Of a DNA stretch of 64,000 nucleotides, positions 9,750 to 40,708 are shown one piece after another; positions within the stretch are counted from its first letter, which is position 1; each line of letters starts with the position of its first letter. The stretch lies in the NCBI GenBank assembly GCA_030431455.1, contig JAUIJE010000006.1, forward strand, positions 310,001 to 374,000, written 5' to 3'. A program made the position numbers and the translations under genes. The notes below the pieces were generated by a model. The model saw only the letters and a list, made by a program, of their open reading frames with translations, ran no database searches and was not told the origin of the DNA. This stretch comes from a bacterium (GTDB taxonomy: Bacteria > Myxococcota > UBA727 > JAUIJE01).

Positions 9750-11540
<1,791 letters not shown>

Positions 11541-22093: not shown

Positions 22094-22200
22094 CGCACCT
22101 CACCCCACCCCCCGACGGGGCCCGGCCCCACCATATGACGACCTGCCCCCTTTTCCACGCTTCCGAAAAGTGAGACAGGCCGCGCGTCGAGGAGGCACCC

Positions 22201-23592
22201 ATGGCCCACGCCGCGCTCATCCGAACCCTGCGCATTCGCACCCGCCGCAAGTTCGGCAATCTCGGTCTGCTCACCACCGCGTTCGGGGACGTGGGCGTCG
22301 GGGTCACCGACATCCGCACCGTCAACGTGGGCCACAACTTCACCGTCCGCGACTTCCACCTCGAGCTCGAAGACAAAGAGCACCTGCAGCAGCTGCTCGA
22401 CACCATCGACCAGCTGGTGGACTCCGACGTGGTCGAGGTGATCAACACCGTCGAGGAGGCCCACTTGGGGGGAAAGATCCGCACCCAGCCGTACGTCGAC
22501 CTCACGTCGATGGCGAGCCTGAAAAACGCGTACAACCCGGGGGTGCGCGAAATCATCGAACGCATCGACGAAAAGCCGGAGCTCGCCTACCGGTTCACCG
22601 CGGTGCAGCGCACGGTGGCCATCGTGTCCGACGGCTCAGGCTTGCTCGGGGTGGGGCGGGTCCGGTCGCGGGCGATGCTCCCCGTGCTCGAGGCCAAAGC
22701 CGCGCTGCTCGCCAACCAAGCCGGGCTGAACAGCCTGCCGCTGGTCATCGACGTGACCACCGAGGAGGAGTTCACCGACACGGTCAAGCGCATCGTGCCC
22801 AGCTGTGGGGCGATCCTGCTCGACGCGGTGGGCGCGGCCCGCGGCATTCGGGTCAAGGCCGCGCTGGATGATGCCTTGGACGTGCCTTTGCTCGACGACG
22901 ACTCGGACGCGCCGGCGATCTCGGTCCTGGCCTCCTTGATCAACGCGTGCCAACGCGCGGGCAAGGACATTCGCGACTGCAAGGTCGGACAGCTCGGGCT
23001 CGGGACCGCGGGCAGTGAGATCGCGCGGTTGGTCATGACCTACACCGGCAAGCCGGTGTACGGCGAGGACGTGCACCCGGCCGCGCTCTCCCGCCACGTG
23101 TTCCGCGGGGGGCGCGAGTCCAATCTCGACGAGATCATGAGCGAGTGCGACGCGGTGGTGGCCAACACCGGGCACGGCGATGTGATCCCGGCGGAGAAGG
23201 TGAGAAAGGGCCAGGTCATCCTCGCCCTGTCCACCCCGCGGCCGGAGATCGATCCCTATGAAGCGACATTGGCGGGGGCGGCGTTCGCGGCCGATGGGCA
23301 GGCGATCAACAAGGTCGTGAGCCTCCCCGGCGTGCTGTTGGGGGCGATGGGGGTCAAGGCCCGCACCGTCAATGACGAGATGCGCATCGCCGCTGCAGAG
23401 ACATTGGCGAAGGCGGCCGACGACGAGGACATCCTGCCCACCCCGTTCAAGGAGGGCATTCACGCCGAGGTCGCGGCCCAGGTCGCCCGGGCCGCGGTGG
23501 CCTCGGGGGTGGCCCAGACCGGGCTCGACGTCGACCTCACCCCCGCGCTGTTCGCGGCGGTGATCCGCGACGAGCGCCTGCTGCCGCTGTAG
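22201..23592 (+). CDS. ACT-domain malic-enzyme-like protein with altered metal site
   Basis: The 463-aa protein starts 7 bases after a GAGGAGG ribosome site. Residues 1-85 form an ACT-like regulatory domain. The rest follows NAD-malic enzyme order. NAYNPGVREI holds the catalytic-type Tyr111, and VAIVSDGSGLLGVGRV and PVLEAKAALL hold Lys166. A GxGxxG dinucleotide loop (GLGTAG, about 267-272) follows. The metal-site motif that normally reads LEDI reads LLDAVG, and the usual HDDQHGTA reads LDDDSDAPA, so several expected ligands differ. In true enzymes these residues coordinate the divalent metal needed for malate decarboxylation. It may be a divergent dehydrogenase or a regulatory homologue. Confidence 0.7.
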   Translation: MAHAALIRTLRIRTRRKFGNLGLLTTAFGDVGVGVTDIRTVNVGHNFTVRDFHLELEDKEHLQQLLDTIDQLVDSDVVEVINTVEEAHLGGKIRTQPYVDLTSMASLKNAYNPGVREIIERIDEKPELAYRFTAVQRTVAIVSDGSGLLGVGRVRSRAMLPVLEAKAALLANQAGLNSLPLVIDVTTEEEFTDTVKRIVPSCGAILLDAVGAARGIRVKAALDDALDVPLLDDDSDAPAISVLASLINACQRAGKDIRDCKVGQLGLGTAGSEIARLVMTYTGKPVYGEDVHPAALSRHVFRGGRESNLDEIMSECDAVVANTGHGDVIPAEKVRKGQVILALSTPRPEIDPYEATLAGAAFAADGQAINKVVSLPGVLLGAMGVKARTVNDEMRIAAAETLAKAADDEDILPTPFKEGIHAEVAAQVARAAVASGVAQTGLDVDLTPALFAAVIRDERLLPL

Positions 23593-23618
23593 CGTTCGGC
23601 GCTGACCGCACCCCACAA

Positions 23619-23648
23619 AAAAACGCCGCCCTCCGGGGCGGCGTTTTT
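23619..23648. terminator. Bidirectional rho-independent terminator
   Basis: A 13-bp inverted repeat (23619-23631 with 23636-23648, four-base loop) has an A-run on the left arm and a T-run on the right. It can therefore stop transcription of both the malic-enzyme-like gene and the converging TPR lipoprotein operon. Confidence 0.9.
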
Positions 23649-25641: not shown

Positions 25642-26919
25642 TCAGCGGCCCGAGGCCATGCGCCGGGCGACTTGCAGACGACCGGCGAGACCGGCCTGCT
25701 GGAAGTATTGGGGGTCGTTCTTTTGGATGTGTTCCCACGCTTTGGCCGCGTTGGCGGGGTCACCGTTCATCAGGTGGGCCATGCCGTTATAGTGCCAAGC
25801 GGGCATGAAGTCGGGGCTGCGCTTGATGATCTCCCCGTACAGGCGCAGCCCTTCGTCGGTGCGCCCGGTGAGGATCATCGCCCGGGCCTGGGCGGTGTTG
25901 GCCATGGGGTCGCCGGGCTTGAGCTGGCGGGCTTGGTCGATGAAGCCTTGGGCCCCGGCCGCGTCCCGCATGTCGAGCTTGTCGAGGGCGTTGGCCATCG
26001 CCACGTCGTAGGGGGGCGCGTTCTCGGGGAGGTTCTTCACGCGTTCGGGGGTCTTGGGCGCAGGCCCGCCGCCGAACGACGCCGCGCCGCCTTTGACCCC
26101 TTGGGTCTGGCCCATGGCCGCGGCCGCTTGCACCGCGGGCCCTTGGGCGAGGCGGCCTTCGCCGCGCAGACCGGCTTCGATCTCTTGCAGCCCCTGGCGG
26201 ACCTTTTCGAGGTTGGGGGAGTTGGGCGCGGCCTCCAGATACATTGTCCAGGCCCGCTTGCCCTTTTCGAGCACCTCTTGCGACGCCCCCGGGCTCTCCG
26301 CCACCGCGGCCCCGATGAGAAACAGCGCGTCCACGTACTCGAACATCTCCGCTTTGTTCAGCTCGCCGGACTGTTTTTGCTGCTTGTCGAGTTGCGACAG
26401 CCGGATCTCCAGCTCTTGGATCGTGCGGTCGGGGTTGCCGAGGAAAAAGAAGCACCGGGCGAGGAGATTGCGCGCCTCCGCGTAGCCGGCTTGGGCGTCG
26501 AGCACTTTGGTGAACAGCTCGGCGGCTTCGATGAAGCGCCGCTCGGCAAAGTAGAACTTGCCCAGGATCATCCACCGTTGGGGCCCTTCGGCGAGCGCTT
26601 GGCCGTTGCCGATGTCGCCGGGGAGATTCTCCAGGGCCTCCTTGAGCTCGGCGAGGCGCTTTTCACGGTCCGCGCCCTCGAGGTCCTTGAAGTCCTTCTC
26701 CATCCGCTTGACCAGGTCCTGCCGGCTGATCTTGCCGTCGAGGATGCCCTCGAGGATGGCGACCTTCTTTTGCAGCTCGGTGTTGGTCGAGCCGCCCATC
26801 ACCGGGGCGTGGGTCTCGGCTTTGCTCGGGGCGGCGGCGGAGCCCACCTGGGGCGGCTCCAAGCAGCCGGGAAAAACCAGCGCGGCCAGCACGGCGGCGG
26901 GTGCAGCGATCTGTCGCAT
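25642..26919 (-). CDS. TPR lipoprotein (first of three)
   Basis: I chose ATG 26919, five bases after GGGGAG; the open frame upstream lacks a signal. The 425-aa product has a lipoprotein signal (VLAALVFPGC, Cys19). A charged helical segment follows (LEGILDGKISRQDLVKRMEK). At least five TPR units come next (RWMILGKFYFAERRFIEAAE, AEARNLLARCFFFLGNPD, MANTAQARAMILTGRTDEG, AWHYNGMAHLMNGDPANA). It is the promoter-proximal gene of a three-lipoprotein operon and diverges from feoA. Confidence 0.75.
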   Translation of the reverse strand: MRQIAAPAAVLAALVFPGCLEPPQVGSAAAPSKAETHAPVMGGSTNTELQKKVAILEGILDGKISRQDLVKRMEKDFKDLEGADREKRLAELKEALENLPGDIGNGQALAEGPQRWMILGKFYFAERRFIEAAELFTKVLDAQAGYAEARNLLARCFFFLGNPDRTIQELEIRLSQLDKQQKQSGELNKAEMFEYVDALFLIGAAVAESPGASQEVLEKGKRAWTMYLEAAPNSPNLEKVRQGLQEIEAGLRGEGRLAQGPAVQAAAAMGQTQGVKGGAASFGGGPAPKTPERVKNLPENAPPYDVAMANALDKLDMRDAAGAQGFIDQARQLKPGDPMANTAQARAMILTGRTDEGLRLYGEIIKRSPDFMPAWHYNGMAHLMNGDPANAAKAWEHIQKNDPQYFQQAGLAGRLQVARRMASGR

Positions 26920-27091
26920 GAACTCCCCTTTCCAGGCGGGGCAGGCGCCCCAGCGCGACCTTACGTCAAACCGGCCCCGCGTCGTCCAGCCCGGGGCCCG
27001 AAAATCGGCGAAAAACCGTGGGACCAAAACGCCCCCCAGGGGCCGGTCCATTCCGCGTTCCCCATCGGACAAAGGGTGGACCCGATACTTT

Positions 27092-27110
27092 GAAAATGAT
27101 AATCATTCTC
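27092..27110 (+). promoter_or_regulatory. Fur box in front of feoA
   Basis: GAAAATGATAATCATTCTC matches the 19-bp Fur consensus at 17 of 19 positions. It ends four bases before the feoA ATG and overlaps a possible -10 element (GATAAT, 27098-27103). Binding of Fe-Fur would block polymerase, giving iron-repressed expression. Confidence 0.9.
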
Positions 27111-27114
27111 TACC

Positions 27115-27360
27115 ATGAAGACACTCAACGAGTACCTGCCCGGGCAAAAAGTGATCTTGGGTCGGCCCGCCTTGTTCGACGAGGTCGCGCTGCGCCTGGC
27201 CGAGTTGGGACTCTGCGAGGGCGCGACCGTCACCATCACCCGGCGGGGCCCGCTCGGTGATCCCCTCGAGGTCGAGGTCAAGACCACGCGCATTTGTCTG
27301 CGCGCCGAAAAAGCTCGTCAATACCCCGCCGATCTTTCCCCCGCGGGCGTGCGGCCATGA
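27115..27360 (+). CDS. feoA: Ferrous iron transport protein A
   Basis: The 81-aa protein has the SH3-like FeoA fold. It begins with the L-N-E-Y-L-P-G-Q start and LGRPALFDEVALRLAELGL, then EGATVTITRRGPLGDPLEVEV, the classic G-D-P segment. FeoA supports FeoB in Fe(II) uptake. It overlaps feoB by ATGA and lies directly behind a Fur box. There is no Shine-Dalgarno sequence before the ATG and the start is only a few bases past the likely transcription start, so the mRNA may be leaderless. Confidence 0.93.
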   Translation: MKTLNEYLPGQKVILGRPALFDEVALRLAELGLCEGATVTITRRGPLGDPLEVEVKTTRICLRAEKARQYPADLSPAGVRP

Positions 27361-29426
27361 CCAGCGCGCCCACCGTGGTCCTCCTCGGCAACCCCAACGC
27401 GGGCAAGACCACGCTGTTCAATGCCCTCACCGGCTTGCGGGCCAAGGTGGGCAACTACCCTGGCATCACCATGGACGTGCGCGCCGGCGACATCGTGGCC
27501 GGGGATCAGCGGGTCCAGGTCATCGATCTGCCCGGCACCTATTCACTGGCCCCCCACTCCGACGACGAGGCGGTGGCGGTGCGGGTGGTGCTCGGTCGCC
27601 TCGCCCCCCATCTCGTGCCGCACCACATCGTGCTCGTGCTCGACGCCACCCACCTCGAGCGCCACCTGTACCTCGCGGCCCAGCTCGAGCGGCTGCAGAT
27701 CCCCTACACAGTGGCATTGACGATGACCGACACCCTCGATGCCGAGGGCGGCCGGTTGGATGTGGCCGGCCTGGCCCAGGTCCTGGGCCGCCCCGTGTAC
27801 CGGGCGTCGGGCAACAACCCCGACGAGGTCCAGGCGTTTCGCCAGCGGTTGCTCGACGACGTGCGCGATGAGCCGTTGCCCGCGGTGGACGTCACCCCCC
27901 TGTGGTACCGCGCGTTGGTCGAGGTCGCGGGGGCAGGGGACGCGGTGGGCAGCGACCGCCCGGGGCCCGACGTGGACGCGGCCGCGGTGGCCAAAGACGC
28001 GGTGGACGGCCTCGCCCGCCGGGCCACGGAGATCGCCGACCAAGTGCTCACCATGCCCGACGAGCGCCCCCGGTCCGAGCGGCGCACCGACGCCATCGAT
28101 CGGGTGATGTTGCACCCGGTGGCGGGGCCGATGGTGTTCGTGGTCCTGTTCGGGTTGTTGTTCCAGGCGTTGTTCACCTGGGCCGCGCCGTTGATGGACG
28201 GCATCGATCTGGTGGTGGGCGGCCTTGGTGAGCTGTTGGTGGGCTACATCCCCGACGACATGCCCCTGTCCAAGTCCCTGTTCCTCGACGGGGTGGTGTC
28301 GGGGGTGGGCAACGTGTTGGTGTTCGTGCCCCAGATCGCGATCCTGTTTTTGGCCCTGTCCCTCCTCGAGGACTCGGGGTTGTTGGCCCGGGTGGCGTTC
28401 TTGCTCGACCGGGTGATGTCACGGGTGGGACTGCACGGCCGGGCGTTTGTGCCGTTTCTGTCCGGCTTCGCGTGTGCGGTGCCGGCGATCATGGCCACCC
28501 GCGCGATCTCCAGCCACAAAGACCGGCTGACCACGATCATGGTCACGCCCCTCATCTCGTGCAGCGCGCGCCTGCCGGTGTACACGCTGATCATCGCGAC
28601 GGTGTTCGCCACCGCTGAGCCGGTTTTGGGCATCAACGTGGGGACCTGGATCCTGTTCGGCGCCTACGGGCTCAGTGTCGGCGCGGCGTTGGCCATCGCG
28701 TTTGTGTTCAAGCGGACGTTGCTGAAAAGCCCGGTGCCGAGCCTGGTCCTCGAGCTGCCGGTGTACCGCCGGCCGCGGTTGGGCCAAGCGGCGAAGACCG
28801 CGGCGGAGAAGTCGTTCGCGTTTTTGCGCGACGCGGGCACGATCATTTTTGCCATCACGCTGGTGTTGTGGGCGCTGTTCACATTTCCGCGCGACGACGC
28901 GGCCCAGGCCCAGCTGCAGGCGGATGTGGCCGCGCTGGACAAGACCGCGGAAGACGCGGAGGAGCGGGAGCAGGCGCTCCGTTCGGCCCACGCCGCGCAC
29001 GCCCTCGACCACTCCGTGGCCGGTCGCCTCGGCCACGCCCTCGAGCCGGTGCTGAGCCCCTTGGGGTTCGATTGGAAAATTGGGGTGGGGGTCATCGCCA
29101 GCTTCGCCGCGCGCGAAGTGTTCGTGTCGACAATGGGCTTGGTCTACGGGCTCGGCGACGGGACGGACGAAGAGAGCGTCTCGCTCAAGCACGCCATCCA
29201 GAACGACACCTACCCGAACGGTGAGAAGGTCTACACCCCGCTGACCGGGCTCAGTCTCATTGTGTTCTTCGTGCTCGCGATGCAATGCATGAGCACCCTG
29301 GCCGCCACCCGCCGCGAGACGCGCAGCTACCGGTGGCCGGTGTTTCAGTTCGCGTACATGACCGCGCTCGCCTACGTGGCTTCGCTCATCACGTTCCAGG
29401 TCGGGCGCCTGTTGGGGTTTGGCTGA
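27357..29426 (+). CDS. feoB: Ferrous iron transporter FeoB
   Basis: The 689-aa protein has the N-terminal GTPase domain with G1 GNPNAGKTT (residues 11-19), G2-type VGNYPGITMD and G3 DLPGTY (57-62). It continues into the polytopic iron channel with the Gate motifs (FLSGFACAVPAIMATRAI; LISCSARLPVYTL). The G4 motif, normally N-x-x-D, reads T122-M-T-D125, so the Asn is missing. A hydrophilic, probably helical insert (about 520-575) lies within the C-terminal half. The start at 27357 overlaps feoA; the frame open further upstream was rejected. Inner-membrane Fe(II) importer. Confidence 0.93.
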   Translation: MTSAPTVVLLGNPNAGKTTLFNALTGLRAKVGNYPGITMDVRAGDIVAGDQRVQVIDLPGTYSLAPHSDDEAVAVRVVLGRLAPHLVPHHIVLVLDATHLERHLYLAAQLERLQIPYTVALTMTDTLDAEGGRLDVAGLAQVLGRPVYRASGNNPDEVQAFRQRLLDDVRDEPLPAVDVTPLWYRALVEVAGAGDAVGSDRPGPDVDAAAVAKDAVDGLARRATEIADQVLTMPDERPRSERRTDAIDRVMLHPVAGPMVFVVLFGLLFQALFTWAAPLMDGIDLVVGGLGELLVGYIPDDMPLSKSLFLDGVVSGVGNVLVFVPQIAILFLALSLLEDSGLLARVAFLLDRVMSRVGLHGRAFVPFLSGFACAVPAIMATRAISSHKDRLTTIMVTPLISCSARLPVYTLIIATVFATAEPVLGINVGTWILFGAYGLSVGAALAIAFVFKRTLLKSPVPSLVLELPVYRRPRLGQAAKTAAEKSFAFLRDAGTIIFAITLVLWALFTFPRDDAAQAQLQADVAALDKTAEDAEEREQALRSAHAAHALDHSVAGRLGHALEPVLSPLGFDWKIGVGVIASFAAREVFVSTMGLVYGLGDGTDEESVSLKHAIQNDTYPNGEKVYTPLTGLSLIVFFVLAMQCMSTLAATRRETRSYRWPVFQFAYMTALAYVASLITFQVGRLLGFG

Positions 29427-29617
29427 TGGCGGAGTTTGAACTCGACCTGTTGGTGGTCATGCTCGTGGTCGCGGCCGCGGTGACGTTCATCGCCTGGCGG
29501 CTTTTGGGCCATCAAGCCCCCCCGCCCGAACGGCGCGAGGTCAACGTCCAGCTCAAAGGCGCCCTCGGCCGGGCCATGGACAAGCGCGGCCACCAACAAT
29601 CCCCCGGGTGCCATTAG
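29426..29617 (+). CDS. Small single-pass membrane protein in the feo operon
   Basis: This 63-aa protein starts at an ATG sharing one base with the feoB stop. It has one N-terminal membrane helix (LLVVMLVVAAAVTFIAWRLL) followed by a basic cytoplasmic tail ending SPGCH. Its size, position and C-terminal Cys resemble the FeoB-associated Cys-rich membrane proteins found after feoB in many bacteria. A role in assembly or regulation of FeoB is inferred from context only. Confidence 0.7.
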   Translation: MAEFELDLLVVMLVVAAAVTFIAWRLLGHQAPPPERREVNVQLKGALGRAMDKRGHQQSPGCH

Positions 29618-29964
29618 CGCCCATCCAGCACAGCCCCAGCCCCGCTGGCGGTATGCCATGGGCTTGCGAGCCGTGAAGGGGCGAGGGGGCCTGCGCCCCC
29701 TCGCAGAAGACCACAGAACACATCTCGAAATCGCCTGGACATGGCATGTCCCGGGTTCGAGTGAGCGAAGAAGCGGGGGGAGTCCGAGCGAGGGCGCCAC
29801 GAGCGACCGGACCGATGCCCAAACAAAACGACACAGGTTCCCGTTGCTCAAGCCATTCCTCTGGAATGGCCGACCTGCGCGCCGAACGAGCAGACCCCCA
29901 TCGAAGTCATGCGCTGCGAAGAAGGCCCGGCTCGAAAGCGCCGAAGGCGATCTTGAGACGTGCT
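29618..29964. repeat. Hairpin-rich intergenic region with blocks shared with 61.4 kb
   Basis: No gene is seen in these 347 bases. They hold several perfect stem-loops. Positions 29681-29704 form a 10-bp stem with loop CTGC. At 29737-29751, GGACAT-GGC-ATGTCC is a three-base loop. At 29853-29869, CCATTCC-TCT-GGAATGG has a 7-bp stem. At 29939-29949, CGCC-GAA-GGCG. Two blocks recur near 61.4 kb. Positions 29842-29871 match 61449-61478 at 27 of 30 bases, and 29662-29689 match 61495-61522 at 23 of 28, with block order reversed between the sites. I interpret this as a REP/BIME-like modular repeat; part may also terminate feo transcription. Confidence 0.6.
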
Positions 29965-30714
29965 CTAGAAGTAGACGTTGTACGAGAGCCGGGCGATCTG
30001 GGCCACGAGGGGGATGCCCGCGAGGTCGGCGAACACCGCGATGTTGCCTTCCACTTGCAGTGACATTTCGTCGTAGAAGATGTCGATCGGCATGCCGTTT
30101 TTGCGGAAGGTGGGCAGGAAGAACCACTCAAACCCGCCCCCGGCCCGGACCCCGGCCCACAACGCGGTGTTGAACCCCACGAAGTCGAGCTGGTTGAAGC
30201 GGATGGACGTGCCTTGGGCGTTGGGCATCCACAGAATGTGCAGGTGTCCCGAGATGAACGGCCGGTATTCCTCGTCGAGGAAGTTGTATCTCAAGCCCGT
30301 GCTCTGCTGGAGCGACACGATGGGCTGAAACAGCCCGCCAAAGCGGGTGACATCGACGAACACCGCCGAACCCATGCCCACCACCACCTGGACGTCGAGC
30401 CAGAGGTTGTAGCCGAGGGCGCGGAAATAGCTCGTGCCCAATGTCGCTTGGTGGGTCGCGTCCCAGCCGTTGGTCTGGCGGCCGTTGATCACGGGATTGA
30501 ACGGCCCGTAGAACTGCTGGTAGTCGTCGTTGCCGCCGCACAGGGTCCCCACCCCGGCCAAGGGATAGCCGAACGGGCTCATACACCCCAACACGAGCAC
30601 GCCCGCGTTGGGCAGTTGAATGCCGTTGTTGCGGAACTGGGCGCTCGCCGGTGTCGACAGGCAGAGCACCGTGGCCGCCGCCATCGCAAAGAGCACAAAC
30701 CGGTTCAGCCGCAT
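29965..30714 (-). CDS. Outer-membrane beta-barrel protein
   Basis: The 249-aa protein has a cleavable signal (FAMAAATVLCLSTPASAQF). The mature part is made of alternating-pattern strands rich in Gly, Tyr and Phe, for example FRALGYNLWLDVQVVVGMGS and WAGVRAGGGFEWFFLP, and it ends SYNVYF with terminal Phe. This points to a small outer-membrane barrel of the eight- to ten-strand size class. A GGGAGG site precedes the ATG. It is followed on the same strand only by the repeat-rich spacer, so it appears to be monocistronic. Confidence 0.7.
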   Translation of the reverse strand: MRLNRFVLFAMAAATVLCLSTPASAQFRNNGIQLPNAGVLVLGCMSPFGYPLAGVGTLCGGNDDYQQFYGPFNPVINGRQTNGWDATHQATLGTSYFRALGYNLWLDVQVVVGMGSAVFVDVTRFGGLFQPIVSLQQSTGLRYNFLDEEYRPFISGHLHILWMPNAQGTSIRFNQLDFVGFNTALWAGVRAGGGFEWFFLPTFRKNGMPIDIFYDEMSLQVEGNIAVFADLAGIPLVAQIARLSYNVYF

Positions 30715-33853: not shown

Positions 33854-35305
33854 TTACGAACCGAACGGGAGGCTGACAAAGGTGGATAGCCAGGTGGCGA
33901 TCACCGGCGAGCCCACCCCGAGCAGGATGCTCGCCACCGCGCACAGGCTCAGCACCACCACCCGCCAGGGGCTGTTGGTCAGGCGCACCCGGCGCGGGTC
34001 GGGGCTCTTGCCGAAAAAGAAGAAGCCGAGCCGGATCACGACCAGCGAGGCGAGGCAGGAACCGACCAGCGGGGCCAGGGCCAAGACCGCGTTTTGGCTG
34101 GCAAAACCGACCCCGGCGATCTCCAGGCGGGCCCAGAACCCAGCGGTACCGGGCAGGCCGGTGAGGGACGCGCCGCACACCAGCAGGGCGAGGGCGAACA
34201 GGGGGTGCAGGCGGCCGACGCCGGCCCAGCGTTCCCAGGTGGGCAACGACTTTTCGTTGCGCAGCACAAAGCCGCGGGCCACGCCGACCCCGACGATGCC
34301 CACGGTGATGCCCACCAGCATCGTCACCAGCTGGGGCACAAACGGCGCGCCCTCCCGGTGGCACCCGATGGCGCACAGGACCACGCCGGTCTGCAGCAAC
34401 ATGACCTGGCCGAACACGCGGTCGAGGTCGCGCTGGTCGAGCGCGGCGATGGCGGGCACGAGCACACTGAGGGCGGCCACCGCGTACAGCATCGGGGCCA
34501 AGACCCCGCCTGCGGGGGCGGCGGCGAAGATGCGCACCAGCACCGCGCTGCCCCCGAGCACGGCCCCGATCCGGGCGAACATCACCGCGAACGACGAGCC
34601 CCCGTGGGCGGTGTCCACCGCCGACACCGAGAATGGTACTGCACCCATCCGGTGCAGGACGCAGAGCAGGACCAAGATCGCGCCCATCGCCGCGGTGGAC
34701 GACCCCCCGCGCAGGGCGGCCCCCACCGCGGCCAGGTCGGTGCGCCCCGCGGCGAGGAAGAGCAGCGCCACCCCGGTGCCGAACAGCACCGCCCACAACA
34801 GCGCGGGCACGTAGGTCTTCATCGCCGCTTCCGCCCCCCGCCCGGTGCGGCGGTCGAGGGCGTAGAGCGCGCCGGTGCTCATCACAAAGATGCCGTCCGC
34901 GACCAGCACCACCAGCAGATCCACCGCCGCCACCAGGGTCAGCCACGAGGAGAGCCCGAGCAACAGCAGGGCGAACACCTCACCCCGCTCGGCGTCGAGC
35001 TCTTTGAGCGCGGGCACGGCCGCGACCACCACCAATGCCCCTGCACCGAGCCCCACGAGGCTGAGGCACAAGGACAGCCGGTCAAACTGCAACACCCCGA
35101 GGGTGAGCCCGGGGGCCATGGCCGGGATCACGGTCAGCTTCTGCACAAACGCCGCCGCGAGCGCGGTGAGCGACAACACCGCCATCTGGGCCCGGGACCC
35201 GGCCTTGCGGTAGCCGGGCGGGGCCCCGGTGGCTTCGAGCACCAACACCAGCAACGCCGCGCCGACCACGACGAGCAGGGGGATGAACTCGAACCACGCG
35301 CTCAC
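33854..35305 (-). CDS. NuoN-like complex I membrane subunit with lost charged residues
   Basis: The 483-aa protein has about 14 predicted membrane helices and the N-subunit frame (GAEAAMKTYV, RMGAVPF, LTGLPGTAGFWARL). In ordinary NuoN a Glu on TM5 and two Lys residues (in FKI.AVPF and GSKAA) carry protons. Here the Glu position is Gly138, the first Lys is Arg219 and the second is Gly247. The gene overlaps the M-like gene upstream by ATGA. I infer that it still folds and assembles but may not pump. Confidence 0.75.
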   Translation of the reverse strand: MSAWFEFIPLLVVVGAALLVLVLEATGAPPGYRKAGSRAQMAVLSLTALAAAFVQKLTVIPAMAPGLTLGVLQFDRLSLCLSLVGLGAGALVVVAAVPALKELDAERGEVFALLLLGLSSWLTLVAAVDLLVVLVADGIFVMSTGALYALDRRTGRGAEAAMKTYVPALLWAVLFGTGVALLFLAAGRTDLAAVGAALRGGSSTAAMGAILVLLCVLHRMGAVPFSVSAVDTAHGGSSFAVMFARIGAVLGGSAVLVRIFAAAPAGGVLAPMLYAVAALSVLVPAIAALDQRDLDRVFGQVMLLQTGVVLCAIGCHREGAPFVPQLVTMLVGITVGIVGVGVARGFVLRNEKSLPTWERWAGVGRLHPLFALALLVCGASLTGLPGTAGFWARLEIAGVGFASQNAVLALAPLVGSCLASLVVIRLGFFFFGKSPDPRRVRLTNSPWRVVVLSLCAVASILLGVGSPVIATWLSTFVSLPFGS

Positions 35306-36813
35306 GGCGCCTCCCCGGGGAAGCTGGGCGTGGGGGGGCGGGTCTTGCCGAGCACATCGCGCACCGCGCGCTCGGCGTCGCCGAGCTGGGCGTAGAGGTA
35401 GACGGCCCCGAGCAAACCGACCACGAGGGGGATGAACAGCCGCAGGGTCTGGCCGCGGGTGAGCTCGGCGGGGGGGCGTACCCGGTGCTCAGGCACGTGG
35501 AGCATGCGCTTGAGGTGCAAAAACAGCCCGACCCCGAGCAAGGCTTGGAACAAGCCGAGCCCAGCCACCAACCACAACGACGACAGCGGGCCGAAGGGGG
35601 CGGGGCCTTGGCCGACCTCGAGGAGCAGCGCGGGGAGCACGACCCCAAAGCCCACCCCGGGCACGCCGATGAGGGCGGCGCCGGAAAACAAAAACAGCCG
35701 CCAGAGGGCGGGGACCTTGTCCGAGAGGCTGAACAGTTCGTCGGCGTCGCGGGTGTAAAAGCGCCGCTCGATGGCGTCGATGACAAACGACAGCGAAGCG
35801 GCCGCGATGCCGGCGCAGGCGGCCCCCGACAGGGCCGCGGCCACCGCCGAGGGCAGCCCCGAACAGATGGCGACAAACACCTGGGCCCCGGCGAGGGCGA
35901 GGGCGGCGCCGAGGTACCGCAGCAGGTCGCGTTCGATGAAGACGTGGACCGCGGCGTAGACCCCTGTGAACAATGCCACTGCAGCGACCACGGGGTAGGC
36001 GTCGTGGGCCCCGCCGGGCTCGAGAAACACCGCCCAGCGCAGGCCGAAGTAGGCGGCGAGGGGAAAGATGCCCCCCGCGAACAGGGCGGTGACGGTGACG
36101 GGGGCCTCTTCGAGCCAGGCCACGTGGCTCGACGACAGGGGGAACACGCACAGCCGCGCGCCGCAGGCCCCGATGAGCAACATGAACAGCAGGCCTTCGC
36201 GGGGGCCCGTGCCGAACAGGTCGCCGAGGAACACCACCGCCTGGGCCTCGCGGCCGGCGAGCAGCAGCGTGAGCCCGGCGAGGCAGAGGATGTCGGTGAT
36301 GGAGAAGATGATCGCCATCTTGTAGCCGGTGGAGCCCTTGTGCTGCCCGCCGAACAACGCGGTGAGCAACAGCACCGGGTAGGCGGTGACGGCGAGGAAG
36401 GTGAGGGCCAGGGTGGCGTGCTCGACGAGGGCGGCGCAGAGGGCAAAGCTCTCGAACGCCAACACCAACAGCACGTGCCCCTTCATGAACGCGGCCGAGC
36501 GGGGGGCGCCGCCGCGCAGGGCCATGGGGCACACCGCGCAGATCGCGAGCACCGCGGCGAGGTTGGTGCCGTCCAAAAACAGGGGAAAGCTGACCGAGAG
36601 CCACGGCACCAGCACAATGTGACTGAGACCGCCCGCGCCCGACAGGCGCGAGGCCGCGTAGATCGCGAGCCCGGACACAAACAGCGTCGCCCCCATGCCC
36701 ACCGCCCGCAGGGTGGGGCGGTCGCTGCCCGGCAGCAGGAGCGCAAAAAACGCGCCCAGCATCGGCGCCCCGATGAGCAACGTGAGCAAACTCTCGTCGA
36801 GCCAAGCGATCAT
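35302..36813 (-). CDS. NuoM-like complex I membrane subunit with lost charged residues
   Basis: I start at ATG 36813, which overlaps the L-like stop by ATGA; a longer upstream reading runs through that gene. The 503-aa product is highly hydrophobic. The stretch FLAVTAYPVLLLTALFG aligns with the NuoM segment FFELSLIPM, placing Ala141 where the essential Glu belongs. In ARLCVFPLSSSHVAWLEEAP, aligned with KMPLFPFHTWLPDAHVEAP, the Lys is Arg. The downstream channel Lys (GVLLK in typical M subunits) is replaced by GGIFP. Two dispersed-motif copies belong to this region (35034 in N, 35981 here). Confidence 0.75.
   Translation of the reverse strand: MIAWLDESLLTLLIGAPMLGAFFALLLPGSDRPTLRAVGMGATLFVSGLAIYAASRLSGAGGLSHIVLVPWLSVSFPLFLDGTNLAAVLAICAVCPMALRGGAPRSAAFMKGHVLLVLAFESFALCAALVEHATLALTFLAVTAYPVLLLTALFGGQHKGSTGYKMAIIFSITDILCLAGLTLLLAGREAQAVVFLGDLFGTGPREGLLFMLLIGACGARLCVFPLSSSHVAWLEEAPVTVTALFAGGIFPLAAYFGLRWAVFLEPGGAHDAYPVVAAVALFTGVYAAVHVFIERDLLRYLGAALALAGAQVFVAICSGLPSAVAAALSGAACAGIAAASLSFVIDAIERRFYTRDADELFSLSDKVPALWRLFLFSGAALIGVPGVGFGVVLPALLLEVGQGPAPFGPLSSLWLVAGLGLFQALLGVGLFLHLKRMLHVPEHRVRPPAELTRGQTLRLFIPLVVGLLGAVYLYAQLGDAERAVRDVLGKTRPPTPSFPGEAP
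35981..35993 (-). repeat. Representative copy of dispersed motif TGCAG-N3-RCATTG
   Basis: On the minus strand this site reads TGCAGTGGCATTG. Other perfect copies are 6543-6555, 12721-12733, 23394-23406, 24904-24916 and 61165-61177 (plus strand), and 35034-35046 and 63970-63982 (minus strand). The shorter core GCA-N3-RCATTG occurs at ten more places: 3581, 10800, 19626, 20417, 48380, 53064 and 54293 (plus), and 8525, 37887 and 46185 (minus). Most copies are inside genes and use codons otherwise rare here. Function unknown. Confidence 0.75.
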
Positions 36814-38834
36814 GCGTGACTCCACCAGTACAAGAGCAGGGCCGCCCCGAACATCACCAGCGCCATCGCCCGCTGTACGTCCCCGCTGTAGCCGCGGCGC
36901 AGCAACGCACGCAGGCCGGCGAGCACCAACGCGGGGGTGCGGCTGACCAACCCGTCGACGAACACGGGGAAAAACACCCCCACCGCATACCGGCTCACCG
37001 CCGCCACCGGCCGCACCACCAGCCGGCCGAACACATCGTGCCACCAGGTCTCGGCCTCGAGCGCGCGGTACAGGGGCTGAATCTGGCGGATGTTGCGCAG
37101 GCGCTCGTACCGGGGGGTGGGCCCGCCGCGGTACAACAGCGCGCTCACCGCGTAGGCGAGCCCGGCGAGGGCCGCCCCGGCGACAAAGCCCGTGACCCGG
37201 AGGGAATCGGGCACGTCGGGGGCGGCGGGGGCGTGGCGGAACAGGGCCGCGCCGTGCAGCCGGGCCGCGGGGGTGAACATCATCTCGATGGGCGAATAGA
37301 AGTTGGGCGACACCAGGCGCGCGATCTCGTCGGGCCAGGTCAACACCAGCCCCGCGGCCCCCACCACCAGGGCGAGCACCACGAGGAACAGGCCGCGGCG
37401 CCAGGGGATCTCGACCAACACCGCGGGGGGCGCGGTGCGGGGGGTCTCGCCCGAGAACGCGAGGTGCAACGAGCGAAACAATGCCAACGCAAGAACAAAG
37501 AACGCGCCCGCGGCGAGGAGGGCGACCCAGGGTACGCCCCGCGGGCTGGCCAGCTCGCCGTAAAAGAGAATTTCAAACGCGGACAGGCCGGGGCCAAAAC
37601 ACAGCGCGAGGGTGATCATCGCCCGGGTCGCGTCCGAGATGCGCAACGCCCGCCACAGCCCGCCGAGGTCCATGAGCGAGGTCTTGCCCTGCATCGCCTC
37701 CACCGCCGCCCCCATGGGGAGCAGGAGGGGGCCGAGCACGATGATGAACAGCGCAGAGGTCAAAAACCCGCCGTACATCTCGCCACAAAAATAGCCGAGC
37801 AGGGCCAGACAACCCCAAGAGTGCAGCGCGAACAGGTCGACCTCGGCCGCGCGGTCGCGGTTGAGCGCGGTGAGGGCGGCCGCCAACAATGTCAGTGCGC
37901 AGACCGTGGTCGCCACCACGTGCACCACCGGGTCGGCGACGAACGCAAACGTCAACCAGCGGGCTATGAGTAGGACCGGGCCCCAGAACGAAAGCCCGTG
38001 GCACAACCCCACCACGGTCATGGAGGCGTGGGCGGTGCCGTGCAGCACGCGCACAAACGGAAACGGCACCACCCGCAGCAACAGGCCCGAACAAAAGAGC
38101 ACCCCCACGAGCCAGCGCACCGTCGAGGCGGGAAACCCCGCGAACACCCCGGCCTCGGCCACCTGCCAGGCATCGGTGGTGATGAGCCGGCCGACCACGG
38201 TGGGCGCGTCGAGGGTGCCGTAGGCCACCCAGGTCACGGCCAACGCGCACAGCAGCACCGCGTCGCTCAAGCGCTGGAACACGAAGAGGGGGCCGAGCTT
38301 CTCGGTGGGGCGGTGTTTGCGCTGGGTCGACAGCAACAAGCCAAAGCCGACGAACCCCAGCAGCGAGGTGAGCAGCACCAACCACCCGAGGTTGCGCACC
38401 ATGGTGAGCACACACAGGCCGCCGAGGAGCACCAGGCCGGCCGCGACCTGGGGCGCGGTCAGGGGCCGGCCCACGTCGGTGCGGCCCCCGCCAAGGATGC
38501 GTTCGCCCACGAACAGCAGCGCGCCCCCGCTGATCAACACCGCCACGCTGAGCAGGGCCCCGGCGGGGTCGAGCGCGAGGTCGACGGGCAGCGTGCCCGG
38601 CGCGCGGAGGGTGAGGATCATGCCGCGAAAGCCCCCCGGCTGTCCCCAATTGCCCAAGGTGAGCACGGCCCGGACCGCGAGCACCGCGAACGTCGTCGAC
38701 GTCGCCCACCCCGCGAACGCGATCAGCCGGTGCACGCCCCGGGGCAAGATGTTGCCGAGGGGAAACAACAGAAGGCCGGTGGCGAGCACCCCGCCAAACA
38801 CAAACACCAGGCTCGCCCATTCGGTGCTGGCCAT
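36810..38834 (-). CDS. NuoL-like complex I membrane subunit with lost charged residues
   Basis: The 674-aa protein has the size and layout of NuoL, including a long C-terminal extension ending in a membrane helix (about 580-674). The diagnostic G-W-E-G-V-G segment of TM5 reads NLGWLVLLTSLLG, putting Leu152 in place of the Glu. The segment around the conserved Lys (AQLPLHTWLPDAM in typical L) reads RVVPFPFVRVLHGTAHASM. It shares one base (TGATG) with the K-like gene before it and overlaps the M-like gene after it. Confidence 0.75.
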   Translation of the reverse strand: MASTEWASLVFVFGGVLATGLLLFPLGNILPRGVHRLIAFAGWATSTTFAVLAVRAVLTLGNWGQPGGFRGMILTLRAPGTLPVDLALDPAGALLSVAVLISGGALLFVGERILGGGRTDVGRPLTAPQVAAGLVLLGGLCVLTMVRNLGWLVLLTSLLGFVGFGLLLSTQRKHRPTEKLGPLFVFQRLSDAVLLCALAVTWVAYGTLDAPTVVGRLITTDAWQVAEAGVFAGFPASTVRWLVGVLFCSGLLLRVVPFPFVRVLHGTAHASMTVVGLCHGLSFWGPVLLIARWLTFAFVADPVVHVVATTVCALTLLAAALTALNRDRAAEVDLFALHSWGCLALLGYFCGEMYGGFLTSALFIIVLGPLLLPMGAAVEAMQGKTSLMDLGGLWRALRISDATRAMITLALCFGPGLSAFEILFYGELASPRGVPWVALLAAGAFFVLALALFRSLHLAFSGETPRTAPPAVLVEIPWRRGLFLVVLALVVGAAGLVLTWPDEIARLVSPNFYSPIEMMFTPAARLHGAALFRHAPAAPDVPDSLRVTGFVAGAALAGLAYAVSALLYRGGPTPRYERLRNIRQIQPLYRALEAETWWHDVFGRLVVRPVAAVSRYAVGVFFPVFVDGLVSRTPALVLAGLRALLRRGYSGDVQRAMALVMFGAALLLYWWSHA

Positions 38835-39118
38835 CAGCCGCGCAACTCCCGGATTTCGTCGACGTTGACCGAGCCCCGGCGCCGGTAGACGGTGACCGCC
38901 ACCGCCGCGCTCGCCACCGTGAGCAGCGCGAACACCAACAGGTAGATCGCGGCCGCGACGTGGCCGTGGTCGGCTTTCTGGGCGAAGACCAACGCCGGGC
39001 CGATGCCGGCCACTTGGGCGCTGACGAGCACGTGCAGCAACGAGCGCCGGGTGACCATGCCGATGACGCCGATGATCACCAGCCCGAGGCCGGCCACGAG
39101 GAGCGCGGGCAATGTCAC
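38834..39118 (-). CDS. NuoK-like complex I membrane subunit lacking both key glutamates
   Basis: The 94-aa protein starts with GTG inside the stop of the J-like gene (GTGA). The N-terminal half follows NuoK (GLVIIGVIGMVTRRSLLHVL), and the end VDEIRELRG matches the common VSEMRG. The first conserved Glu (in IGLEIM) is Gln35 (LVSAQVAG). The second (AEASIGL) is absent (LTVASAAVAV). These Glu residues are needed for proton translocation in studied complexes. Three membrane helices are visible. Confidence 0.8.
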   Translation of the reverse strand: MTLPALLVAGLGLVIIGVIGMVTRRSLLHVLVSAQVAGIGPALVFAQKADHGHVAAAIYLLVFALLTVASAAVAVTVYRRRGSVNVDEIRELRG

Positions 39119-39573
39119 GTCCGCCTCCGCATCAACAGCAGCACCGCCAACGACGCGGCCAAGGTCATGATCCCGATGCCGGACAGCGCGATGGCCCCGT
39201 GGTCGAGGGTGAACGGCGCCGACGTGGTCAGCGGGGTCTGGTCGGCGAGCAACAAGCCCGCGCCCGCGGCCGCGACGTAGATGACCACCGCGGTGTACAG
39301 GCCGGGGCCGATGCGCAGCCGGCGGCGCCCGATTTCGTGGGCGCCGAGATTGACCGAGAGGTTGACCAAGACGACGAACATGCCCGCGCCCCCGCCGAGG
39401 ACCCAGACCAGCACCGCGCCGGTCAGGCCCGCGCCTTGGGCGGTCATCCACAAGGCGGCGGCGAGCAACAAGAACATCACCGCGACGAGCCCGCGCAGCG
39501 CTGAGCCCGTGGCCACCGCGTAGGCGCCGAGGGACAAGCAGATCGCGCTGAAGATGAGGTCCACCGTGAACAC
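39115..39573 (-). CDS. NuoJ-like complex I membrane subunit
   Basis: The 152-aa protein has five hydrophobic helices. The J-subunit core, which usually reads AEFLA...VYVGAIMVLF, is represented by TAQGAGLTGAVLVWVLGGGA, so both the Glu and the Tyr-Val-Gly-Ala bulge are changed. It is the first gene of the J-K-L-M-N operon. The 82-bp spacer to the divergent OmpA gene must hold both promoters. None of the peripheral-arm genes (A-I) are in the window. Confidence 0.65.
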   Translation of the reverse strand: MFTVDLIFSAICLSLGAYAVATGSALRGLVAVMFLLLAAALWMTAQGAGLTGAVLVWVLGGGAGMFVVLVNLSVNLGAHEIGRRRLRIGPGLYTAVVIYVAAAGAGLLLADQTPLTTSAPFTLDHGAIALSGIGIMTLAASLAVLLLMRRRT

Positions 39574-39655
39574 TCCGGGGCGGGTTCCGTCCGAGAGAGC
39601 AGCGGACTATCACGCCACGGGCGGTTTGGCATCGCTCGACGAGGAAGGAAAAGCC

Positions 39656-40708
39656 ATGGGCAAGACAGCGCGGGTGGCGGCAATGTGTCTTTTTGCGGCG
39701 GGGGGCGCGGCGCCGGCCGCGGCCAACGACGTGGACGTGACCATCGTGTCCAAGGTGTCGGTGGGGGACGCGTCGCGGGTGAAGGTCAAGATTCACAAGG
39801 GCGTCGAGAAGATGGAGCTCAAGGTCTCGGCCCCGGGTCTCGGCACCGTACACAAGACGGTGAAGCGCAAAGGGGTGGGCGAGACCGCGGAGTTTGTGTT
39901 GCCCCCGCAGAAAAAGCCGGGGGTGGTGACCTGGCGGGGCACGCTCAAGGTCACGTTTGTCGACGAGGCGTTCGGCCAGATGCCGCTGTCGTTTCAGACC
40001 GAGGCGGTGGCCGGGGTCAAGGTGATGCCCGTCGAGGACAAGATGGACACCGACGGCCACACCATGGCGGTGCGGCTCGACCGGGTGTGCGACAAGCTCG
40101 AGGTCGACGTGTTCGACATCGACGGGCAGCTCATCGCCCACAGCGAGCCGCCCTGCGCGGGGAAAAAGCCGGGCGAAGAGATCGCGGTGTCTTGGACGCC
40201 CAAGACCGACCGGCGGGTGTTTCGCATTCGCCTGACCGCGACCGACCCAGACACGATTTTTGGCACCACCGAGTCATATCCCTACCGGGTCGAGGTCGAG
40301 CACGAAGAGGTGCAGTTCGAGACCGGGAAGGCCGACATCTTGCCCGACCAGCGCAGCAAGCTCGAGGCGGTGTTGCCCAAGATCAAAGCCGAGGCCCAAC
40401 GCGCCCAAAAAGGGTTCAAGGCCGCGCGGGTCCAAAAGCGGGTGCGGCTGTTCATCATTGGGCACACCGACACGGTGGGGCCGGCGGGGGCCAACCAGGC
40501 GCTCTCCGAACGGCGCGCCCGCGCCATCGCCGGGTGGTTTGCCCAGCAGGGGCTCGGCGTCGACCTGTACGCGCGCGGTTATGGCGAGTCCATGCCCAAG
40601 GTCGCCACCCCCGACGAGACCGACGAGCAACAAAACCGCCGGGTAGACTACATTCTGGCCGTCGAGTCGCCCACCGGCTCTTTGTCCGGCTGGCGCAAGG
40701 TCCGGTGA
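39656..40708 (+). CDS. OmpA-family protein
   Basis: I chose ATG 39656 because GGAAGGA lies eight bases upstream and a signal follows (VAAMCLFAAGGAAPAAAND). The 350-aa product has an N-terminal beta-rich region of unknown type. The C-terminal OmpA peptidoglycan-binding domain shows VQFETGKADILPDQRSKLE, GHTDTVGPAGANQALSERRA and ARGYGESMPKVA. It should tether the outer membrane or a partner to peptidoglycan. A 25-residue tail follows the domain. Confidence 0.9.
   Translation: MGKTARVAAMCLFAAGGAAPAAANDVDVTIVSKVSVGDASRVKVKIHKGVEKMELKVSAPGLGTVHKTVKRKGVGETAEFVLPPQKKPGVVTWRGTLKVTFVDEAFGQMPLSFQTEAVAGVKVMPVEDKMDTDGHTMAVRLDRVCDKLEVDVFDIDGQLIAHSEPPCAGKKPGEEIAVSWTPKTDRRVFRIRLTATDPDTIFGTTESYPYRVEVEHEEVQFETGKADILPDQRSKLEAVLPKIKAEAQRAQKGFKAARVQKRVRLFIIGHTDTVGPAGANQALSERRARAIAGWFAQQGLGVDLYARGYGESMPKVATPDETDEQQNRRVDYILAVESPTGSLSGWRKVR

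Follow-up and report, generated by a model that had tools for sequence, protein, structure and literature searches.

Can a protein that keeps the fold of a malic enzyme still oxidize malate when much of its active site has been replaced? The question is raised by one gene of a myxococcotal bacterium, found in the window, the 64,000-nucleotide stretch of DNA that was analysed. An earlier note, made from the sequence alone, had described its product as a malic-enzyme-like protein with substituted metal-ligand motifs and an attached ACT domain, which could use another substrate or act as an amino-acid-sensing regulator. The reading frame, its coordinates, Tyr111, Lys166 and the GxGxxG loop (G266-L-G268-T-A-G271) were confirmed as described there. 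The features of the locus are listed by window position and strand.

22190..22195, +, AGGAGG, ribosome-binding-site-like, 5 nt ahead of the ATG (read directly from the sequence)
22201..23592, +, gene of the ACT-malic-enzyme-like protein, 463 aa (open reading frame, TAG stop included)
22213..22449, +, predicted ACT domain, residues 5-83 (Pfam ACT_4, E 4e-4, below the gathering cut-off; predicted strand/helix order)
22462..22956, +, former catalytic domain, i.e. the malic enzyme N-terminal domain, residues 88-252, with relaxed active-site loops (PF00390, E 1.2e-8, 35.4 bits against a cut-off of 23.1)
22819..22830, +, LDAV replacing LEDI, residues 207-210; the metal Asp (MaeB D150, human D256) is Ala209 (alignment; equivalence from PMC7902834)
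22894..22917, +, DDDSDAPA (residues 232-239) replacing HDDQHGTA; the window protein still has the two Asp of HDD, and D236 is the same in every family member
22972..23235, +, Rossmann dinucleotide-binding domain, residues 258-345, with the GLGTAG loop at 266-271, D290 following strand 287-289, and T in place of N345
23236..23502, +, C-terminal part, residues 346-434, where N370-K371 takes the place of the Asn pair N-N (alignment)
23617..23648, no strand assigned, probable two-way terminator of A-run, GC hairpin and T-run (by eye)

Domain structure and surroundings of the gene

The window protein has the fold of the malic enzyme superfamily, in which the malic N-terminal domain is followed by the Rossmann domain Malic_M (PF03949, 32.5 bits against a cut-off of 23.5, E 7e-8). 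At E 0.01 or better, PF00390 matched five of the seven family members described below, PF03949 six and PF02826 all seven. Three NCBIfam malic families also matched all seven members at E 0.01 or better; scores were compared with the cut-offs for the window protein only, which did not reach that of any curated NCBIfam malic-enzyme subfamily, its best model being NF009501, a 764-residue hybrid NADP malic enzyme (114 bits against 1178). The AlphaFold model, made from an alignment of 34 sequences, had a mean pLDDT of 91.5 and a pTM of 0.87. The nearest solved relative by sequence was the malate oxidoreductase of P. horikoshii (1ww8, E 3.7e-49), and 1ww8/2dvm also ranked first in the fold comparison (Foldseek E 2e-31; VIA Z 46, rmsd 2.2 Å over 378 residues), which scarcely covers residues 1-51. 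In the AlphaFold model, this N-terminal part had the strands and helices E6-15, H20-30, E34-43, E47-56, H59-70 and E75-81, a β-α-β-β-α-β order over residues 6-81, and together with the sub-threshold ACT_4 match this predicted order supports the ACT domain proposed in the earlier note. The ACT profile gave five matches against the PDB, none of them significant (best E 0.025). Assignment of an ACT ligand by homology was rejected, the PDB ACT entries, such as GTP pyrophosphokinase (E 0.36), being not significant. In the Rossmann domain, G266, G268, G271 and D290 were invariant in all seven members, as in a putative NAD(P)-binding site.

The probable terminator sits between the malic-like gene and a convergent TPR gene. 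The hairpin was absent from the output of the terminator scan, the promoter scan found no promoter, and the window contained no tRNA and no Rfam match at the gathering score. Within positions 25645-30714 lie the TPR gene (-), FeoB (+) and a gene (-) for a small envelope-like protein that matched neither Pfam nor NCBIfam, and the order of malic-like gene, convergent TPR gene or genes, FeoB and envelope-like protein was common to the window, G006 and G001. The TPR and envelope genes stood beside the malic-like gene without FeoB in G002, the TPR gene lay at the contig edge in G004, and the whole neighbourhood was absent from the compared stretches of G003 and G008. The TPR gene was the best-conserved neighbour, adjoining the malic-like gene in five of the seven genomes and covering all four carrier families, which fits vertical inheritance. 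A small gene just upstream was found in G001, G004 and G006, with copies only weakly alike; those of G001 and G004 had no family match above the cut-off, and the window has no room for a gene of this type, while G003 and G008 have another small upstream gene in common. Gene context was dropped as a clue to function: it points to no pathway, and the TPR gene runs towards the malic-like one. Elsewhere in the window, a run of membrane-protein reading frames at 33854-40141 (-) resembled NuoN/NuoM/NuoL-type subunits by eye, two 4-kb blocks within 32-40 kb had a strong AT skew (0.20 and 0.35), and positions 11195-11454 held a CGTCGC hexamer array of 43.3 copies with 83% matches.

The active site in the window protein and its orthologs

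The key positions of the site, which in human malic enzyme we take to be Y112, K183, E255, D279, N466 and N467, were followed through the alignment. MaeB Y52, K107, E149, D150 and D174 (PMC7902834) correspond to window positions 111, 166, 208, 209 and 233 with a constant offset of 59. The catalytic Tyr and Lys are present in the window protein as Y111 and K166, while the Glu-Asp-Asp metal ligands are represented by D208, A209 and D234. The replacement of LEDI was borne out, the aligned residues being L207-D208-A209-V210. The second motif had been given in the earlier note as LDDDSDAPA, which is shifted by one residue; the true eight are D232-D233-D234-S235-D236-A237-P238-A239. The metal-ligand motifs were thus substituted as stated in D209 to A and E208 to D, but both Asp of HDD are still present. 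Further changes in the window protein included H232 to D, H236 to D and T238 to P, as well as a loss that the earlier note did not contain, that of the cleft Asn residues (N345 to T and N371 to K), so that the cleft carries T345, N370 and K371. N300 of MaeB, the equivalent of human N421, contacts the nicotinamide, and the distance between D150 and N300 (human D256 and N421) is a measure of cleft closure (PMC7902834). Judged by the place of the ALSNP-type motif, the counterpart of N300 would be window position 345, in which case both members of this pair, as A209 and T345, are replaced.

The malic-like gene was found in seven of the 16 genomes of the order that were searched, that of the window included, with one copy each, and the six orthologs were 44-57% identical. 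The carrier genomes measured 2.8-7.7 Mb. The gene was missing from the 1270-contig assembly G010 and from the eight genomes of family f5 (G005, G007, G009, G011-G015). The f5 genomes are all just 0.3-1.8 Mb, a size that may point to host dependence of this lineage inside the order. The residues of the seven members at nine key positions are given in the order L001 to L007, where L001 is the window protein. The comparison set consisted of 80 canonical ACT-malic enzymes, and each of the nine canonical residues was found in 80 of 80; left out of this set were L010, L100 and, for want of an ACT match, L011-L022.

Position 111 (canonical Y): Y T Y H T L L
Position 166 (canonical K): K K K K K R R
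Position 208 (canonical E): D D D E E T A
Position 209 (canonical D): A S A S S G S
Position 233 (canonical D): D D D E E G D
Position 234 (canonical D): D D D G G S A
Position 345 (canonical N): T E E E E E Q
Position 370 (canonical N): N S H S S T T
Position 371 (canonical N): K T K T T R R

D209, N345 and N371, kept throughout the canonical set, were lost in all seven members. Tyr111 was lost in five and Asp234 in four, and Lys166 was changed to Arg in two. Only the window protein and L003 retained the Tyr, the Lys and both Asp of HDD together, and others kept almost none of the site, so that the seven form graded intermediates. The dismantled site is more than chance, because six orthologs share it and all 80 canonical enzymes keep the nine key residues.

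A search of 195 genomes of the phylum gave matches at E 1e-60 or better in ten, of which three outside the order (L008, L009 and L027) had canonical motifs. A scan of genome contigs with two peptide patterns taken from the seven covered 80 of 91 relatives among the matches listed; two of these loci (L028 and L029) were the G003 and G008 members themselves, and the other 78 were canonical at the key residues where the segment was covered, L100 being partly covered. Among the matches listed, the degenerate form occurs only in this order, and other degenerate ACT-malic groups may exist. In the same phylum, L015:1501-2520 (G032) encodes a full-length MaeB-type hybrid whose malic motifs are also broken (PALEGTSV for PVMEGKxV, IENI for LEDI, FHGEQHGTA, and INS for NN), a dismantled enzyme of a different subfamily.

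Other malic domains in the carrier genomes were searched with PF00390. The window genome, at L108, and G006 each had a second malic domain, MaeA-type by eye, with intact YTPTVG, ED, NDDIQGTA and GNNV. G002 had a MaeB-type one (L110, also L022:1501-2520, on G002:C37), with LKD replacing LED and the other key motifs canonical; here the putative proton-donor Glu is changed to Lys. No other malic domain was found by this search in G001, G003, G008 and G004, the last only 70% complete. Redundancy is thus not general, since four of the seven genomes lack a detected second malic domain.

Origin of the family and shift of constraint

The earlier note had proposed a phylogeny with the ACT-containing malic enzymes. 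Two trees, of 59 and 42 sequences chosen by manual thinning, placed the seven members in one clade inside the ACT-malic enzymes (support 100 and 100/100, respectively), and the window protein, with its predicted N-terminal ACT domain, whose Pfam score itself is below the cut-off, branches within that group. The stem of the seven-member clade was long, at 1.17 changes per column in the 59-sequence tree. Its sisters are likely the SAR202/Dehalococcoidia sequences L030 and L031 (support 86, and 84/86), in which the key residues are intact but the second motif reads QDDQDGTA; these sequences already carry Asp236 and His299 with the active site unimpaired. The 42-sequence tree required two to four changes for each of the Tyr, metal and Asn positions and a single change for Lys166, the pattern to be expected when a site has ceased to be maintained.

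Constraint in the family has moved to the ACT and Rossmann domains. The canonical set has 94 columns with a conservation of at least 95%; those kept in all seven members were 2 of the 3 in residues 1-88, 5 of 10 in 89-130, 6 of 37 in 131-252, 15 of 22 in 253-352 and 15 of 22 in 353-463. The difference between residues 131-252 and 253-463 (30 of 44 kept) gave a Fisher p of 4e-6, in a test made after the counts had been seen and with residues 1-130 (13 columns, 7 kept) outside it. Mean pairwise identity was calculated for the 21 family pairs and for 400 random canonical pairs of 0.43-0.60 identity, matched at an overall identity of 0.51. It was 0.54 in the family against 0.28 in the canonical pairs for the ACT domain, 0.60 against 0.51 for the Rossmann domain, 0.45 against 0.60 for the malic N-terminal domain, 0.54 against 0.58 for the C-terminal part, and 0.49 against 0.80 for the former active-site loops. 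The ACT domain was more alike than the malic N-terminal domain in 19 of 21 family pairs, which are not independent and represent one large shift on one stem, compared with 5 of 3003 canonical pairs (78 sequences, L008 and L086 also being left out) and none of 395 within-clade canonical pairs of 0.42-0.72 identity.

New invariant positions were also found. Across the seven members 99 columns were invariant, and eight residues among the invariant ones (R16, R217, D236, T269, H292, H299, N322 and D392) occurred in less than 10% of the canonical set; judged from the alignment, these eight argue for retained function. The dN/dS over the whole gene was below 1 in all four pairs tested. A comparison of dN/dS by domain was dropped, as synonymous divergence was distorted by G+C and the four pairs disagreed.

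Function of the family

The window-family protein is very probably not an ordinary malic enzyme. Malate oxidation is unlikely because the metal- and substrate-binding residues are lost family-wide, and ordinary malic-enzyme activity, improbable for the family on the residues present, would be least unlikely for the window protein and L003. It is improbable that the protein, even if only that of the window species, is still a malic, malolactic or oxaloacetate-decarboxylating enzyme whose metal site is unusual. Such an activity would be favoured by Tyr, Lys, D233, D234 and an Asp at 208 in the window protein, and by the counterparts of MaeB Y52, K107 and D174 (PMC7902834) in both the window protein and L003, but none of the seven has the metal Asp or either of two cleft Asn residues, the orthologs of the same neighbourhood in G006, G001 and G004 lack the Tyr, and a second malic enzyme, its motifs intact, is encoded elsewhere in the window genome. 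Some residual or altered chemistry is still conceivable, since the window protein and L003 retain Tyr, Lys and both HDD Asp. That the gene is decaying under relaxed selection and heading for loss is more improbable still and was rejected: the mosaic of active-site losses and the long branches would suit decay, but the reading frames are intact in all seven genomes at 44-71% identity, the 99 invariant columns include the eight newly invariant residues, the TPR neighbour is kept in five of seven, and whole-gene dN/dS stays below 1.

The earlier note had named the right pair of alternatives, another substrate or an ACT-based regulator, for which amino acids would be no more than candidate ligands. 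The pattern of constraint favours the regulator and leaves a new substrate as a serious rival, though in our estimate an unlikely one. As a neofunctionalized NAD-dependent dehydrogenase, the protein would take another, probably anionic substrate into the emptied cleft without a metal, with R214/R217, D236 and the Lys or Arg at 166 as new binding or catalytic residues. R214, R217 and D236 are indeed invariant in all seven and lie beside the two former metal loops, among the 80 canonical sequences R217 never occurs and D236 occurs in two, residue 166 is basic throughout the family, and the Rossmann domain is its most conserved part. However, no invariant acid/base pair is evident, with the Tyr lost in five of seven and Lys or Arg at 166, and, measured against the matched canonical pairs, similarity fell furthest in the former active-site loops, whereas it rose in the ACT domain. 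A sensor or regulator is probably a better description than new catalysis, because the ACT and Rossmann domains are conserved and the former active-site loops relaxed. The separate malic enzyme of the window genome also speaks for this reading. Against a sensor stand the four genomes in which a second malic domain was looked for and not found, and the best-conserved neighbour, the TPR gene, which is convergent and does not lie beside the gene in G003 or G008.

On balance we favour a pseudoenzyme, inactive on malate, that would bind NAD(H), sense an ACT ligand and derive once from an ACT-malic enzyme, a reading we hold to be somewhat probable. The conversion of an ACT-containing prokaryotic malic enzyme, with loss of malate oxidation, would have taken place a single time, in an ancestor belonging to this Myxococcota-like order. 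The Rossmann domain, to judge from GLGTAG and D290, may still bind NAD(H), and the ACT domain would bind a small ligand. The opening and closing of the ancestral cleft, which in MaeB closes between D150 and N300, could link the two, and a redox or metabolite state would then be reported to a partner instead of a substrate being turned over. D290 does not settle the cofactor type of the Rossmann domain, because MaeB binds NADP although it has D233, which is neutralized by R242 (PMC7902834). A more specific model is that of a two-input regulator inherited across the order, with the TPR gene as its neighbour in five of seven genomes. Here NAD(H) state would be the input of the Rossmann domain and a second metabolite that of the ACT domain, with the former catalytic cleft left only as a hinge between them; we regard this model as evenly balanced between right and wrong.

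The graded intermediates let the rebuilding of a central carbon enzyme be followed. An automatic label of malic enzyme would put a false source of pyruvate and NAD(P)H into metabolic models; four of the seven genomes yielded no further malic domain in the PF00390 search. Dead enzymes that act as regulators are a known phenomenon. NmrA-type dead dehydrogenases, for example, sense NAD(P), having kept the Rossmann fold, lost catalysis and taken a regulatory role; they offer an analogy of working only, as they belong to an unrelated superfamily and no sequence relation is claimed. Among the listed matches in open-licence PMC full texts, judged by title or the opening of the abstract, no report of an inactive regulator with the malic-enzyme fold was found.

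The closest known relatives are the ACT-malic enzymes, such as those of SAR202/Dehalococcoidia (L030/L031), Domibacillus (L035) and Myxococcaceae (L096), which have the same domain order and a short Rossmann loop. In all 80 that were compared, Tyr and Lys are present together with LED, HDD, NN and the Asn of the ALSNP-type motif, which is not so in the seven, and the relation of constraint between the ACT and catalytic domains in the seven is the reverse of theirs. The P. horikoshii malic enzyme PH1275 (1ww8/2dvm), the best fold match, has no ACT domain in the aligned part and, unlike the window protein, has LEDI, HDDQQGTA and NN intact. In its way of working, the preferred reading of a sensing pseudoenzyme resembles the PTA domain of MaeB, an enzyme-derived part that lacks critical catalytic residues and acts as a metabolite sensor (PMC7902834). 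In MaeB, the dead PTA domain responds to acetyl-CoA and regulates a malic enzyme that is itself active, whereas here the malic-enzyme part itself is dismantled.
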